This document shows, piece after piece, positions 43,030 through 50,608 of a stretch of 64,000 nt of DNA. Origin of the DNA: Ereboglobus sp. (GTDB lineage: Bacteria > Verrucomicrobiota > Verrucomicrobiia > Opitutales > Opitutaceae); assembly GCA_029974595.1 (NCBI GenBank), contig JARKRC010000069.1:1-64000 (forward strand), in the 5' to 3' direction. Every line of letters starts with the position of its first letter. Within the stretch, counting starts at the first letter, position 1. The position numbers and the translations under genes are program-made. The notes below the pieces were generated by a model. The model had not been told where the DNA came from, ran no database searches, and was given only the letters and a program-made list of their open reading frames with translations.

Positions 43030-44142
43030 CTATCGCGCCAATGGGAGGGCAGAGTTAAATGTCTTTTCTTCCGGCTCCTTTTCGCTGCTTTTTTGCCAGA
43101 GTTTCGCGCCGCTGTTGCCGCGCACGGCGCGGGCTTTGTCGAGGGTTTGCGTGACGTAGAGGTAGAACTGTTTTCCAGCGGGCACGCGGATATAAAAACC
43201 GTCCTCGGCTATCATTTTGGCGATTTGCGCGGCATAGGTGTTCAGCACGTCGGCGGTGCCCGCGAGGGCTGCGTTTTTGGCTGTTGTTTTGGGGACTTGG
43301 GTCGTCGTTCCAAACGCGGTCGTCTGGTCCTGCATTTCCTGCAGGCCGCCCGCCATGCCGGCAAGAAACGTGGAGGCGAAGAGTTTTATTTCCTGCCAGT
43401 CGTCGGTTTTGATGATGTGCCCGACGAGGCCGGCGGAGCCGTCGCGCAGGCCGTATTCGCCGGAAACCTCGTCGCGCTGGCGGTCGAGTGCGATGCCGTT
43501 GAGCGTGAGTTCGATTCCGTTGTCGGTTGTGCGGTCGCGCCAGACGATCACCCATTGGCCGGAAGCGGCGATGCGTTCGCGTGAGCGGTCTTGCGCAGCG
43601 CGTCCGTGCACTTCAGCGCCAGCGGGAATGATGAGCCGCCCGTTGTGCCAGACGTCCTCGGTAACGAGCCCGATGATCGGGGTGTCGGTTTTAGAGGATT
43701 CGAGGGTGATGATGGTTTCACAAGGGATCAGACGGCCATAGGGCGCGTAGTTCTGCGAGATGGGCTCGCCAGCCACCGAATTTGTAGTTGGAGCGAGGAG
43801 GCTGATCGGGAGAACTGGCGGCCCCTTGGTATTCCGGGTCGGCGTGTTGTTTTCCTGACGCGCCGCACGCGGACGGGAAATCGGCTCGCCATCGCCTGCA
43901 TTTTCCGGCTTCGGCTCGGATCGATTTGGTTGGGGCATCGCTGGCGCGGGGATTTTAAGCGGCTGCCCTTCCCTCGTAATCGTGTGCCGCTCCATCGGCG
44001 GCGGCGGTGTCGATGCAGCTGGCACAGGGCGCTCGCTGCGATTGCCGCCATGAATAAGCAGCGCGCCCACGATCACAAACACGATAATGGAAAGCACGCT
44101 GCCCAGCGGCGTTTTGACGAATTTGATGACGCGTTTGATCAT
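43030..44142 (-). CDS. trbI: VirB10/TrbI-like T4SS protein
   Basis: Single N-terminal TM, proline-rich linker, ITLESSKTDTPIIGLVTEDVWHNGRLIIPAGAEVHGRA. Confidence 0.85.
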   Translation of the reverse strand: MIKRVIKFVKTPLGSVLSIIVFVIVGALLIHGGNRSERPVPAASTPPPPMERHTITREGQPLKIPAPAMPQPNRSEPKPENAGDGEPISRPRAARQENNTPTRNTKGPPVLPISLLAPTTNSVAGEPISQNYAPYGRLIPCETIITLESSKTDTPIIGLVTEDVWHNGRLIIPAGAEVHGRAAQDRSRERIAASGQWVIVWRDRTTDNGIELTLNGIALDRQRDEVSGEYGLRDGSAGLVGHIIKTDDWQEIKLFASTFLAGMAGGLQEMQDQTTAFGTTTQVPKTTAKNAALAGTADVLNTYAAQIAKMIAEDGFYIRVPAGKQFYLYVTQTLDKARAVRGNSGAKLWQKSSEKEPEEKTFNSALPLAR

Positions 44143-45053
44143 TTCGGGGCGATCAGGCGCGCGTCGCGGGAGACGCGCGGCACGATGATATTGAAATTAT
44201 TCCTCACGCTCAGATTCGCGCGTCCGCCGTCGGGCGTACCGGTGATGGCAAAATAGGCGACCGTCTCCGCGCGCGGAGGAATCAGCCCTGACGCGTCCGC
44301 GATGGATGCCGGGTAAAGACGGCTGCCAATGCGCACGGCGAGACTTTGCGGCTGGTAGGCGATTTCCGAGTCGCCGGTGTTTTCGAGTTTTATTTTGAAA
44401 ACGAGCGTGTCCTCGGGATCAAAGCGATACACCTCCTCGACGGTCGCGGAAAAATCCCTGTATTGTGTTTTGTTTTCCGGCGCAGACGGCGCGCGGTGCT
44501 CGATTTGCTGCACGGCCTCGGGATACTGCTGGTTGACGAGGCGGAAACTTTTTGCGCGGTCGAGCAGCGCGAGGAGCATTTCGGGAGAGGCGCGCCTGGC
44601 GAGCGCCGCGCTTTTCCCGGTGATGCGATCCTCATAAAACGTGACCGAGCCATAGGGATTCGCGGCGACGGCAAAGCGGATGATGTAGGTGCGGTTCTGC
44701 AAAATGACGTTGAGTGTCGCGCGGGCGTCGGGTGTCAGCGCGCGCACGCTGAAATAATACCGACCGGCGACATGCGAGAGGAGCACCGGCGCGGGCGTTT
44801 CGGTGTTTGTGGTGAGTCCGGCCCCTTCGAGCGCGGAGGGCGCGCTCGGAAACATGAGTGTCGTCGGTGCGTCCGCGCTGATGGGGATTTGATAGACGAT
44901 GCGCTCATCGAGCGGCAGTTGCTTGACGACGGGCGCACTGTTCGCGGAAAGGATCGGATTCACCACAAAGGCACAAAGGACACAAAGAGAATACATGATT
45001 ATTATATAACTCCTTTGTGATCTTTGTGCCTTTGTGGTGAATAATGTATTCAT
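44139..45053 (-). CDS. trbG: VirB9/TrbG-like T4SS protein
   Basis: DERIVYQIPISADAPTTLMFP; PYGSVTFYEDR; position between TrbF- and TrbI-like genes; start taken at MNTLFTTKAQ. Confidence 0.75.
   Translation of the reverse strand: MNTLFTTKAQRSQRSYIIIMYSLCVLCAFVVNPILSANSAPVVKQLPLDERIVYQIPISADAPTTLMFPSAPSALEGAGLTTNTETPAPVLLSHVAGRYYFSVRALTPDARATLNVILQNRTYIIRFAVAANPYGSVTFYEDRITGKSAALARRASPEMLLALLDRAKSFRLVNQQYPEAVQQIEHRAPSAPENKTQYRDFSATVEEVYRFDPEDTLVFKIKLENTGDSEIAYQPQSLAVRIGSRLYPASIADASGLIPPRAETVAYFAITGTPDGGRANLSVRNNFNIIVPRVSRDARLIAPK
44958..45042. repeat. MITE-like inverted repeat (30-nt arms, 28/30 complementary)
   Basis: ATTCACCACAAAGGCACAAAGGACACAAAG (44958-44987) / CTTTGTGATCTTTGTGCCTTTGTGGTGAAT (45013-45042), 25-nt AT-rich loop. 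Confidence 0.95.
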
Positions 45054-45727
45054 AAAATCGAGAGTTCGTAATTCCATACGGCGAGTGGATAGCGTTTGTT
45101 GGCGATCATATCCGGGTTGCGGACGAGCGTGAGAATGAGCGTGAAACGCGGGGACTCGGTGAAGGCCTGCCGCTCAAATACGCCGGTGCGCACAAGCTGG
45201 CCCTCGACCTTGGCGATGACCTGATCCTCGCGCGTGCGCAAAACATCCACTTTGAAAATTTCCGGTTTTTGATGGATTTGCTTTACCTCGAACTCCTCGC
45301 GGTTTTTCAGCACATCGTCCTGCGTGCGGGCGCAGGCGTCGGTGAGGTAGAGGCGTTGCAGCAGGTCGGGAAAATCGAAGTTTTTTGGATTGCGCTGAAG
45401 AAATGCCAGCGTCGCCCAAATCGTCAGGGTTTCATGCAACGTCTTCGCCTCCTCGAAACCGAGCAGCGGAGAAATGGAAAACGTGCCCGCGCCGTCGAGA
45501 ATGACCACACGCTCGCGCGTGCGGTAGGCTTCTATTATTATGAACGGCTGGATGACCGCGAGCACGACCGCGCCGATGGCGACAAGCGCCCATGCGCGCG
45601 CCGCGAAGGCGTAATCGGCAAACAGGCGCGCAGGATTCCACGAACGACGCGGCTTTGCAGACGGCGGCAGCGGCTTCGCCGTATCGACGGACGTGGTTCG
45701 CAGTGGAGATGGTTCGTCAGCGTTCAT
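45050..45727 (-). CDS. trbF: VirB8/TrbF-like T4SS protein
   Basis: N-terminal TM then VirB8-like domain; VWNYELSIL end; operon position. Confidence 0.75.
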   Translation of the reverse strand: MNADEPSPLRTTSVDTAKPLPPSAKPRRSWNPARLFADYAFAARAWALVAIGAVVLAVIQPFIIIEAYRTRERVVILDGAGTFSISPLLGFEEAKTLHETLTIWATLAFLQRNPKNFDFPDLLQRLYLTDACARTQDDVLKNREEFEVKQIHQKPEIFKVDVLRTREDQVIAKVEGQLVRTGVFERQAFTESPRFTLILTLVRNPDMIANKRYPLAVWNYELSIL

Positions 45728-45730
45728 AAA

Positions 45731-46648
45731 TCAGAGTCCCGGTGTGTGGCGCGCGGACGGCGGCGGAGCGGATGCGGGAGTCATCATCGCAGGGGCGGCG
45801 AGCATGCGCGTGGCGGCCGTCGCGCGGCTGGCGAACTCCGACGCGCCGCGACCGATTGCAACCGGCGATGCCGATTGTCCGGTGAACGCATAACCGTGCG
45901 CAAAGAGCATCTGGCAGACGACCGGCGTCGTGAGCGTTCCGATGAGCAGCGTCAGCGCTGCAATGATGCCGCCCATGTTGACGAGTGTCGGCGCATAGAC
46001 CGCAGCGCCCAGTTCGCCGGGGCCTGGCGCTGCGACCTGCACAAAGTCGCGCCAGATTGCGATGGTGAGAAGATTGGTGATCGCGAATCCGACCGGCCAC
46101 GCGAGCACGGCAAGAACTTGCTGAAAAAAGCGCACGGCCATGCCCTGCAATGCCGGAACCATGAAACAGCCGAGCGCAAACGGCGTGAGCAGATAAAGAA
46201 TCCAGCGCAGCACGTATTGCAGGAGCAGCATCGGCGCGGTGATGAGTGTGCTGATTTGAATAAACACCCACGACACGCCATCGACGACCGCATTATAAAA
46301 TGACTCGGCGAGTTTTCTCCACGACCACTCGCGGCCCTCGGCGTTCGGATTCGCGGCCTCGCGAATGGTGTCGGCGGCGCGCGTGGGGTTGTCCGAATAC
46401 TCCGGGTTGATGTAATCGGCGGCGCCGGTCAGCGTGTTTTCGACAAGCGGAAACCACCAGCCCATCGAGGCGATGAGCGCGGTGATCGTGATGGCGCGGG
46501 CGACGGGCCGGATGAAATCCGTGCTGTGATACTGCGGCCGGTTCACCTGCACGACGAGTCCGGCCACCATCATCGCAAACACAACAAACCGGAACGCCGT
46601 GATGAGCGTCTGGATTTTGTTTTCGAGGAGTGGGAGTATGAAGTTCAT
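45731..46648 (-). CDS. trbL: VirB6/TrbL-like inner-membrane T4SS protein
   Basis: Polytopic protein; start MNFILPLLENK; Pro/Ala-rich C-term. Confidence 0.8.
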   Translation of the reverse strand: MNFILPLLENKIQTLITAFRFVVFAMMVAGLVVQVNRPQYHSTDFIRPVARAITITALIASMGWWFPLVENTLTGAADYINPEYSDNPTRAADTIREAANPNAEGREWSWRKLAESFYNAVVDGVSWVFIQISTLITAPMLLLQYVLRWILYLLTPFALGCFMVPALQGMAVRFFQQVLAVLAWPVGFAITNLLTIAIWRDFVQVAAPGPGELGAAVYAPTLVNMGGIIAALTLLIGTLTTPVVCQMLFAHGYAFTGQSASPVAIGRGASEFASRATAATRMLAAPAMMTPASAPPPSARHTPGL

Positions 46649-46656
46649 TTGTATTG

Positions 46657-46756
46657 AACAGCAAAGGCGCAAAGTTCGCAAAGATTCGGAAAGATATTAT
46701 GACTATTATAATTATTCCTTCTGTCTGATCTTTGCGAACTTTGCGCCTTTGCTGTT
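46657..46756. repeat. MITE-like inverted repeat (29-nt perfect arms)
   Basis: AACAGCAAAGGCGCAAAGTTCGCAAAGAT / ATCTTTGCGAACTTTGCGCCTTTGCTGTT, AT-rich 42-nt centre. Confidence 0.95.
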
Positions 46757-46763
46757 TATTCAA

Positions 46764-47567
46764 TTAACGGCCCGCTTTGCGCGGATTGAACGACTGCATG
46801 AATACGGTCACGCGCTTGTTCGCCAGATGGTCGTCCTTTGCGCGAAGCTCGGCGGCGGCGAGTTGCTCGACCTCGCGGCGGTTTTCGTTCGCGAGCTTTT
46901 GCAGGATCACCTCGTCCACCTGGCGGCGGCGCGTCGATTCGAGCTGCGAAAGCTGGCCATTGAGGACGACGAGCTTGGCATTGAGTTTTTGCACCTGCGC
47001 ATCGGTTGTGGCGGAGCGCAGGTCGATAAGCGTCAGGGCGATTTCCTCCTGAAGCTCGCGTTCGCGGGAGCGCGTTTCATCGGTGACGGCGCGGGCGTTG
47101 TCCTGACGGGTATCGAGCACCGAATATCTCCGGTAAAGCTGCGCGTCGTGCCGCACAAGGCCGCCGTCGAGATCGGCAAGATCGACGGGGCGATAGGTGT
47201 TTTGATCGTCGCGGTTGAGCGCGCCAAGACTGTCCACGGTGCGCGTGATCGTGTCGCGCGCGTGTCCAAACTCGCGCGTCAAATCGCCTTCGCGCAGCAC
47301 GTCGAGCGCGAGGGAGCGTGCGGCCTTTGCCGGATCGCCCGCCCATGCGCGCAGGTCGTTCTGGATCGCGACGCTTTGCTTGAGTTGCGTGATCTGCGCT
47401 TTCAGTTGCGCGATGTTTTCGACCCACTTCGCGATGGTCGCGATATGCGAAATCTGGCTGTTCGCGAGATTGGCGACATCGACCACGGGAATGCCGGAGG
47501 CGACAAGCAGCGCCGTGCCCGCGATGCCGGCGGACAGAAATGAGAATATGCGTGTGATGGTTTTCAT
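46764..47567 (-). CDS. trbJ: VirB5/TrbJ-like T4SS protein
   Basis: GIPVVDVANLANSQI...AQLKAQITQLKQSV; operon position. Confidence 0.75.
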   Translation of the reverse strand: MKTITRIFSFLSAGIAGTALLVASGIPVVDVANLANSQISHIATIAKWVENIAQLKAQITQLKQSVAIQNDLRAWAGDPAKAARSLALDVLREGDLTREFGHARDTITRTVDSLGALNRDDQNTYRPVDLADLDGGLVRHDAQLYRRYSVLDTRQDNARAVTDETRSRERELQEEIALTLIDLRSATTDAQVQKLNAKLVVLNGQLSQLESTRRRQVDEVILQKLANENRREVEQLAAAELRAKDDHLANKRVTVFMQSFNPRKAGR

Positions 47568-47984: not shown

Positions 47985-48020
47985 TTTCTAATTCCTACTT
48001 TCTACTTTCTACTTTTTCCC
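47985..48020. repeat. CTACTTT-type tandem short repeat in gene junction
   Basis: CCTACTTTCTACTTTCTACTTTTT; minus strand reads ...KVESRK. Confidence 0.65.
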
Positions 48021-50608
48021 GGTTGTATGTTGCGCACGGTGCCGCATAGCGGCGGATCGGTGACGGGCGTGAAAAAGCAAATGGAAGAAAACTTCTGTCC
48101 ATCGGGCTGCTGTTCGGGCATGGGGTAATTCTGGATCGCCGAGCACACGCTCTCGGGAAGGCCGATGTCGTGCGCGATGTCGTCGATGTCCGTGCGGTCG
48201 AACTGCCGCATGAGGAAGAATTGCTTCGAGTTGCCGATGACGACGGGCCGGATGCGCGAGGATTTGAAGCGGCTGTATTGCTGGACAATCGAAGCCGTCC
48301 AGCACGAAAACTTGCGCAGTTGCGCGTAGGCTTCGGCGACGACTTTCTCGCCGCCGGGAACGTCGAGAAAGCGTGCCAGCTCCTCGTAGAGGATGCGTTT
48401 TCGCAGATGGCGCGGCAGCGAAATAATATGCTGGCGCGAGAATCCGCTGATAAGCAGGCCGGCGGCGGTTTTGAGTTCGATGGATTGCTCGGGGATGTAT
48501 CCGAGTTCAAAATGCGCGATCTGCCCTGTGAGAGAAATATTCGTGATGCCGTCGAAGAGCCGCCCGTATTGTCCATGCGCGCACCACGAGGCGAGAAGCG
48601 TCGCGAGGTGATCGACGGTTTCCTTTTTGTGCTCGGGAAAGCGGGAAAATTGCATCAGCTCCACGAGGCTCGCGTGCTGGGGATAATCGGCGGGCTCGTA
48701 GAAGGCATGCGCCATCGCCATGACGGCGCGCTCGGTTTGCGAGTCTTGCAGAAACGCTGTGATGTCCGCCTCTGGAATCGCGGCTATGAATTGCTGCGCC
48801 TCGTCATCGTTTGCCGCGATGCGGTCGCGCAGATCGGCGTAGGATTCGAGATCCGTCGCGCCTTGCTGCATTTTTATATACTTCCAACGATGCGCGGCGC
48901 AGGCCATGCGCTGGATTTGCGGGAGCAAATCGCGATGCCGTTTCGACCAGTCCTCGAATGCGTCCTGATAAAGCTGGTTGATATACTGGCCCAGCATCGC
49001 CTGGCGGATTTGCTGTGTTTCCTCGTCGGAGGCCTCGCCGATCATGCGCGACACGAGCGCGACGGCGGTGGCAATTTGCAGTTGGTTGAGCGGCAGTTTT
49101 CTCGTGTCGAGATAGTTGATGGTCAGGTCGCCGTCGGGATGGAGAATGATCGGACGCTCGCCCATCGCCTCCGTGAATTTTCCATAGGACAATCCCTCCT
49201 CGATGATGACGGTATAGTGGTAGTAGGCGGCGGTCTGTTCGAGCAGATCGCACATGTGCACGGATTTTCCCGCGCCGGTCGCGCCGAGGAGCACGGCGTG
49301 CTGGGGCGTGGGCGGATTGCCAATAAACGTGCGCAGGCCGACGAGATTGCCTTGCTGCGCGCCGTCGTAGATTGCCTCGGCTCCGTCGAGCAATCCGGTG
49401 AACGTTGCCGAGAACGGCAGCAGGTCGGCAAGGTAGGTGTCCTCGGCGTAGAGATTGCGGTGGCGATACGGCGAATGCGTCCATCCCGGCCATGAAGCGA
49501 AGAAGAGTTTTTTGGCGGTCGAGGGCAGCGCGCACTCATTGTATTGCGCGCCGTTGAGATTGTTGATGGCGTTGCGAACGGCGGCGCATTTTGTGGAGAG
49601 GCCCGATTCGGTGTCATCCCATACGCGAATCATGTAGCAGACGGAAAACGGGCGGATGAAACCGGATGAGAGTGATTCGACTTTGCGCTCCTTTTTGTTG
49701 ATGGCGACGACGAGCGAATGGCGTTCGCTGTCGCGGTATTCGCCGCGCAGCCGTTCGATGGCGCGCTCCTCCTTTTCGACTTCGCCTTTTGTCGGCAGCG
49801 GTTCGAGGTTGACCGTGACTTGATAGTCGAGAAACGGCAGCGTGGTGAGTCGCAAAATGATGCCCGGATAGGTGCGGCTCGGCCAGCGTTTGAACGTGAA
49901 GACCGCGTGGTAGCGCCCGTCGAGATAAAAACCGGTGCCGGTATTCACGCCGTCGGAGCACCAGCAGTTTTCATGGATGGTTTGCTGCGGGTTGAAGCGC
50001 TCGGCGAAGTCGATGTCAAAACCGTCGGCGAGCGACGGGCTCATAAATTTTGAGACATACGTGAAGTGCGCGAGATCATCCATTGGCGTGACCGTCGTGT
50101 CGCCGCCGAAAAGCGTGCGCAGGGAATGGGTGATTTCGTCGAAACGCGCGCGCAGTTGTGCGAGCACTTTCGAGTAACTGGCATCGAGTCCGCTGCGGCT
50201 GGCGGCGAGCGGCGCATAGCTCGCGAGCGAGGTTGATATGAACATCACCAGCTGCTCGCGGCGCAGTTCGCGCCGGTGCATTTTTTCCCAATAGCGTTCG
50301 AATCGTTCCGTCCGCACGCGGCGAACATGCGGATGCGTGCCGATGGCTTCGGTGGCGCGGTGATACCGGGTTAATTCCTGGCGGTAATCGCAGTTGCACG
50401 TCCACTGGAATTGCGCGCGCAGGCCGTCGCCGAGAAGTGAGAGCAGCGCGCGGATTTTGTCCTGATAGGCGTTGAGCTGCGCGGTTGTGCCGCCGCGCAG
50501 GTCGGGCGGATGCAGGATGTAGCCCTTGCCCGCCACGCCTTTTTCAAGCGTGCCGTAGAGGATCATGCCCTCTGCAAAGTAACCGTTCGGTGCGCTGCTA
50601 TTGAGCAT
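48002..50608 (-). CDS. trbE: VirB4/TrbE-like T4SS ATPase
   Basis: Walker A LLGATGAGKSVH; VirB4-like length and C-terminal ATPase. Confidence 0.9.
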   Translation of the reverse strand: MLNSSAPNGYFAEGMILYGTLEKGVAGKGYILHPPDLRGGTTAQLNAYQDKIRALLSLLGDGLRAQFQWTCNCDYRQELTRYHRATEAIGTHPHVRRVRTERFERYWEKMHRRELRREQLVMFISTSLASYAPLAASRSGLDASYSKVLAQLRARFDEITHSLRTLFGGDTTVTPMDDLAHFTYVSKFMSPSLADGFDIDFAERFNPQQTIHENCWCSDGVNTGTGFYLDGRYHAVFTFKRWPSRTYPGIILRLTTLPFLDYQVTVNLEPLPTKGEVEKEERAIERLRGEYRDSERHSLVVAINKKERKVESLSSGFIRPFSVCYMIRVWDDTESGLSTKCAAVRNAINNLNGAQYNECALPSTAKKLFFASWPGWTHSPYRHRNLYAEDTYLADLLPFSATFTGLLDGAEAIYDGAQQGNLVGLRTFIGNPPTPQHAVLLGATGAGKSVHMCDLLEQTAAYYHYTVIIEEGLSYGKFTEAMGERPIILHPDGDLTINYLDTRKLPLNQLQIATAVALVSRMIGEASDEETQQIRQAMLGQYINQLYQDAFEDWSKRHRDLLPQIQRMACAAHRWKYIKMQQGATDLESYADLRDRIAANDDEAQQFIAAIPEADITAFLQDSQTERAVMAMAHAFYEPADYPQHASLVELMQFSRFPEHKKETVDHLATLLASWCAHGQYGRLFDGITNISLTGQIAHFELGYIPEQSIELKTAAGLLISGFSRQHIISLPRHLRKRILYEELARFLDVPGGEKVVAEAYAQLRKFSCWTASIVQQYSRFKSSRIRPVVIGNSKQFFLMRQFDRTDIDDIAHDIGLPESVCSAIQNYPMPEQQPDGQKFSSICFFTPVTDPPLCGTVRNIQPGKSRK

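Follow-up and report, generated by a model that had tools for sequence, protein, structure and literature searches.

The MITE-like repeat RU-2/YAPL of Yersinia forms nucleotides 1-90 of YPO1552 and part of its predicted signal peptide (Delihas 2007, PMC2759123; PMC2229807). YPO1552 is an uncharacterised protein of 144 aa, and its signal sequence is unrelated to those of its homologs in other genera (PMC2759123; PMC2229807). In Rickettsia, the accounts available describe palindromic elements (RPEs), dispersed palindromes fixed in frame in many conserved proteins (Ogata et al. 2000; PMC2229807, PMC10969869), and the passages on REP/MITE-type intergenic palindromes describe hairpin-forming repeats dispersed near gene ends (PMC3733652, PMC10969869).

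The trbG leader presented here is likewise built from a repeat and, as for RU-2/YPO1552, the leaders of its homologs are unrelated. In Yersinia a single gene, YPO1552, is concerned. Here the gene codes for a T4SS component, other members of the genus have orthologs of it that lack the repeat, and repeats of different families have inserted independently two to three times at one site; two further genes are also affected. The locus resembles the RPEs as described in those accounts, a dispersed palindrome lying in frame in a protein-coding gene, by functional analogy only; it differs from them in that the insert is a putative export signal, a role that the passages on RPEs in PMC2229807 and PMC10969869 do not mention. 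With the REP/MITE-type palindromes, as those passages present them, our repeats share hairpin formation and dispersal near gene ends, but their lengths and loops vary widely and their flanks show no obvious target duplication. Because of the Yersinia and Rickettsia precedents (PMC2229807, PMC10969869, PMC2759123), the phenomenon is of a kind already known; what these data add is the recurrence at one site, a set of orthologs within the genus that are free of the repeat, and a rationale in terms of composition.

The window, i.e. the whole stretch of 64,000 nucleotides of Ereboglobus sp. that was analysed, carries on its minus strand a T4SS operon in the order virB4-5-6-(8)-9-10, with TrbL and TrbI profile matches and with virB8 assigned by position only. 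It comprises a virB4/traC-like ATPase gene (48002..50608; PF19044; TIGR02746, E 1.3e-24, below cut-off), trbJ/virB5 (46764..47567; TIGR02791, E 1.8e-6, below cut-off), trbL/virB6 (45731..46648; PF04610, E 6.5e-9), an ORF in the trbF/virB8 position (45050..45727), the trbG/virB9-like ORF (44139..45077, MELRTLDFMNTLFTTKAQRSQRSYIIIMYSLCVLCAFVVNPILSANSAPVVKQ..., from the ancestral start ATG 45077) and trbI/virB10 (43030..44142; PF03743, E 1.7e-23). The trbF-position ORF, whose stop lies inside the trbG leader, was placed by synteny and had no match in the Pfam profile search. A second palindrome (46657..46756, minus strand; 29-nt arms, 100% paired), different in sequence from the one in the trbG leader, occupies the intergenic region between trbJ and trbL, 7 nt past the trbJ stop and a short way ahead of the start of trbL.

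The trbG gene lies between virB8- and virB10-type genes, as for the VirB9/TrbG/TraK component. Its protein had no significant match in Pfam/NCBIfam, CagX (PF03524) and TraK included, and a PDB sequence search was empty; a distant homolog matched TraK_C with an E of 2.4e-4 (below cut-off) and CagX with an E of 0.18. The best PDB match of the AlphaFold model (mean pLDDT 45) was 7spb_C1 (E 1.1e-3, TM 0.17-0.23), a chain of the F-plasmid T4SS outer-membrane core complex that we take to be TraK, the VirB9 counterpart. Since the model is poor, owing to too little alignment depth, this match is no more than supportive. The gene order, together with the fold match of this low-confidence model and the sub-cut-off TraK_C hit of the distant homolog, weakly suggests that trbG is VirB9/TrbG-like.

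The 85-bp inverted repeat in the trbG leader lies where the initial annotation had placed it and with the same pairing, its 30-nt arms (44958-44987 and 45013-45042) being complementary at 28/30 positions (93%) around a 25-nt loop. The first arm begins at the 8th nt past the trbF stop (TGA 45052-45050). Pairing of 30-nt arms reached 28-29/30, whereas 20 shuffles of the window that preserved dinucleotides gave 20-22/30 at best; the predicted RNA fold of the trbF/trbG junction is -57 kcal/mol, and shuffled sequences averaged -29 (z -7.4). No stop interrupts the arms or the loop, which are continuous with the 312-aa trbG ORF, and the in-frame translation is identical to the peptide first reported. 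On the minus strand, the mRNA 5' arm (45013..45042) encodes the basic stretch FTTKAQRSQR, the AT-rich loop (44988..45012) encodes YIIIMYS, and the mRNA 3' arm (44958..44987) the hydrophobic core LCVLCAFVVN. These are followed by the host-derived c-region PILSANSA (44934..44957), with a candidate cleavage site between LSA and NS.

Three candidate in-frame start codons lie on the minus strand. In close orthologs, the MELR... start overlaps the trbF end by about 28 nt in a different frame, and its homologous codon here, ATG 45077, also overlaps the trbF end. The ATG at 45051..45053, in an ATGA overlap with the trbF stop, gives MNTLF...; this start, chosen in the initial annotation, is still a candidate but not the sole one, the MELR of the orthologs corresponding to ATG 45077. 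The third, at 44994..44996 within the loop, gives MYSLCVLC... and is preceded by an AAGGAG, the end of which also lies in the loop, 13 nt ahead of the ATG as originally described. We infer that trbG is translated from the MELR or the ATGA start. In the sister Ereboglobus genome G001, which bears another palindrome at this place, the ancestral MELR start is out of frame with the mature protein and runs into a TAA in the second arm, so that an ATG in the first arm is the only plausible start of the mature-protein frame, no other being far enough upstream; the repeat thus supplies the start codon there.

In the window leader the ancestral hydrophobic core is gone, and KAQRSQR and YIIIMYSLCVLCAFVVN come from the repeat. 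As had been proposed, the trbG leader was invaded by a repeat, a dispersed one, which now accounts for both the basic stretch and the whole of the hydrophobic core; repeat-free orthologs have unrelated leaders. The further claim that the whole signal peptide is repeat-encoded was too strong, because host sequence makes up MELRTLDFMNT, with the probable start, and PILSANSA, with the cleavage region. The features of a Sec signal peptide, as scored in this analysis, are present: a basic n-region, a hydrophobic core and small residues at -3/-1. The best 12-aa Kyte-Doolittle value is 2.66 (2.08-2.88 in orthologs) and the n-region charge is +3/+4 versus +1/+2 in orthologs. The putative cleavage site, with L at -3 and A at -1, is only fair, mainly due to the -3 residue. 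The core has a mean Hessa score of -0.14 over 16 aa and exceeds every tabulated close ortholog in hydrophobicity, so that it might act as an uncleaved anchor. From these sequence features we infer that the protein is exported by the Sec pathway through its chimeric leader, which would then be cleaved off.

Searched against the host genome, the 111-bp query gave 31 matches, corresponding to about 15 loci including that of the window, i.e. about 14 further ones. The arms of this family read ATTCACCACAAAGGCACAAAG..., the loops range from 25 to more than 200 nt, and some copies consist of a single arm. Most copies of the three repeat families found in trbG leaders lie at most about 40 nt from a stop codon, often between convergent genes, as judged on fetched loci with a simple codon-usage gene caller. 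The window's family had no match in G001 or in G003 (Ereboglobus sp. PH5-10), and exact copies of the window arm were present in only 5 of the 384 genomes of a class-wide survey; with the repeat-leader peptide as query, 57 relatives yielded only the window itself and weak, stop-broken matches. The term MITE-like, used in the initial annotation, fits in that the repeat is short, dispersed and has terminal inverted repeats, but the name is an analogy only, the flanks inspected showing no obvious target-site duplication. At three loci (L004, L011 and L018), the arms adjoin a further palindromic element (GGACAACTGGCCAAGCCCCGAGGAGTC...GGCCAGTTGTC), in many cases close to the end of a contig.

We compared 61 homologous trbG loci with readable leaders, either orthologous or distantly homologous. 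No inverted repeat is present in 58 of them, which have ordinary-looking signal peptides; 11 of these are close orthologs, all with a MELR start upstream of the position of ATG 45053. The leaders of the repeat-free orthologs are unrelated to that of the window and lie in the same reading frame; thus the contrary finding named in the initial annotation, an ortholog leader in another frame, is not what the orthologs have. The palindrome-bearing leaders (3/61) are those of the window, of G001 (G001:C1:687092-687187, CGCAGATGAACGCAGATGGACACAGAT family) and of G003 (G003:C5:51001-51102, ACCACGGAGACACGGAGG family). The three genomes belong to one genus, the two sister genomes having one repeat-bearing trbG copy each, and the three palindromes belong to different families, each with copies scattered through the genome that carries it. 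All begin 6 to about 15 nt past the trbF stop, the first stretch where an insertion changes the trbG leader alone. In G003 and G001 a hydrophobic stretch is kept downstream of the repeat, which lengthens or replaces the n-region.

In the protein tree, the window trbG clusters (98/94) with six repeat-free copies of the related genome G048, and the repeat-bearing copies of G001 and G003 sit apart from it, in an Ereboglobus clade (98/94) that also includes repeat-free paralogs. The G001/G003 pair is the closest by DNA identity (94.8%; dS 0.19, dN/dS 0.08) and carries different repeat families, with flanking leader residues far more diverged than the mature part. Two insertions are required, and three are the simplest account unless one repeat replaced another. 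Contig C1 of G048 contains ten or eleven trbG-like matches. Six are full-length and 79-83% identical to the window gene, which suggests that a single chromosome carries many conjugative elements related to one another.

In the genetic code, purine-rich codons are opposite in hydropathy to their complements. When 105 arms of the window's family were read, the 5' arm was strongly hydrophilic whatever the frame (mean KD -2.0 to -3.0, with an average net charge of +0.8 to +3.0), and the 3' arm was hydrophobic in every frame (mean KD +0.7 to +1.9), with the best value in the frame used by trbG. The other two families present the same hydropathy contrast in all but one frame, with a less consistently positive charge. 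This contrast follows from the complementarity of the arms: as the purine-rich 5' arms are hydrophilic and their complements hydrophobic, the palindromes resemble ready-made signal peptides.

Taken together, these data lead us to favor, with a probability of roughly 0.8, a dispersed palindrome that inserted in the trbG leader, was tolerated and became its functional n- and h-regions. A repeat of a class usually found just downstream of stop codons landed 7 nt past the trbF stop, in the overlapping 5' end of trbG that codes for the signal peptide only. Signal peptides demand a composition and not a sequence, and the purine-rich 5' arm would give basic or polar residues, the pyrimidine-rich 3' arm hydrophobic ones, so that the insertion could be tolerated. 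The ancestral core was lost or displaced, the MELR start and the host-derived c-region remaining.

The palindrome may also act as RNA, and it is rather unlikely, although conceivable, that this is its main role, as a stabiliser or terminator of the trbF 3' end or as a trbG attenuator, with the coding capacity a passive by-product. The clustering of copies just past stop codons, the second palindrome between trbJ and trbL and the z of -7.4 are in line with such a role, but arms and loops alike differ among the three trbG insertions, and the search for regulatory signals gave no match to any Rfam family. An RNA hairpin is compatible with the leader role, and hairpin control of T4SS expression, as raised in the initial annotation, is a candidate function based on the stable predicted fold.

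Translation from the internal ATG 44996 (MYSLCVLCAFVVNPILSANSA), in which the second arm alone would be the leader and the hairpin a regulatory 5' structure, appears improbable. The spacing between the AAGGAG and this ATG is long, the AAGGAG is paired in the predicted hairpin, the resulting n-region is without any basic residue, and the ancestral MELR, at which orthologs start, precedes the hairpin in the same frame. In favor of this start are the presence of the AAGGAG itself, the strength of the hairpin, the GTG codons of the G003 arm that could serve likewise and the two G048 genes described below, which have the 3' arm only. That the insertion damaged the leader, trbG being a decaying or poorly exported copy whose frame is open by chance, is very unlikely, since against the facts that this trbG is the sole copy found in the genome and that a T4SS can decay stand a 268-aa mature region and adjoining T4SS genes that are intact, mature-region dN/dS values that are low (0.03-0.21 for pairs within the genus, about 0.12-0.21 for the window gene versus relatives in its genus and in the sister genus) though they pool the selection that preceded the insertion with that which followed it, a leader that retains signal-peptide properties, and three loci with three repeats that all ended as open, export-like leaders.

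The reading of the repeat as a source of leader sequence extends to two G048 proteins of exported type, unrelated to TrbG, whose signal-peptide cores are encoded by this 3' arm, read as in trbG and present as a single arm only: a TonB-receptor-like protein (MKNSRLFCVLCAFVVGSLAAFA followed by QNE; CarboxypepD_reg and Plug domains), the orthologs of which have unrelated leaders in the window's genus, and an autotransporter-like protein (...ALLCALCAFVVNLLPLHA followed by ATYTW; PATR repeats). These two and trbG are the in-frame cases retained; trbG and, with its single arm, the TonB-receptor gene lack the repeat in relatives. Many other in-frame arm matches were judged by eye to be antisense shadow ORFs and were dropped.

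A second palindromic element, read as GSGGMGDSPVGSDRMADPAMLSEHGRVARATQPA, was seen in frame in many proteins of the window's genome (G000), G003 and G001. Its loci include, in G000, L297 (G000:C18:13695-13802), L301 (C12:78353-78454), L305 (C22:17979-18086), L311 (C13:88076-88180) and L308 (C44:32464-32562), in G003 L298 (C17:21508-21612), L302, L306, L309 and L312, and in G001 L299. The hosts, named by eye from sequence without family searches, include PurL, MetH (twice in one protein), PurH, a dihydrolipoamide acetyltransferase linker, a sensor histidine kinase, a CobN-like protein, an RND transporter (twice) and a TolC-like protein; the PurL of the sister species is without the element. By analogy, this spread looks like an invasion of coding genes of the Rickettsia RPE type in Verrucomicrobiota.

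The ordinary leaders of close orthologs, set beside different palindromes at the same place in three related genomes, provide a before-and-after series for a targeting signal arising from repeat DNA. The opposite hydropathy of complementary codons is a suggested reason why palindromes would be pre-adapted to this role, an idea testable by simple reporter fusions. Tentatively, and at somewhat less than even odds, these palindrome families may be a mobile source of ready-made signal peptides, by which leaders have been rewritten repeatedly in these Opitutaceae. If so, an insertion in a leader could regenerate an export signal in either orientation, because the purine-rich 5' arm, with its basic and polar codons, necessarily precedes the pyrimidine-rich 3' arm with its hydrophobic ones. 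The data also point to Ereboglobus, beside Rickettsia, as another lineage in which proteins widely contain fixed palindromes.
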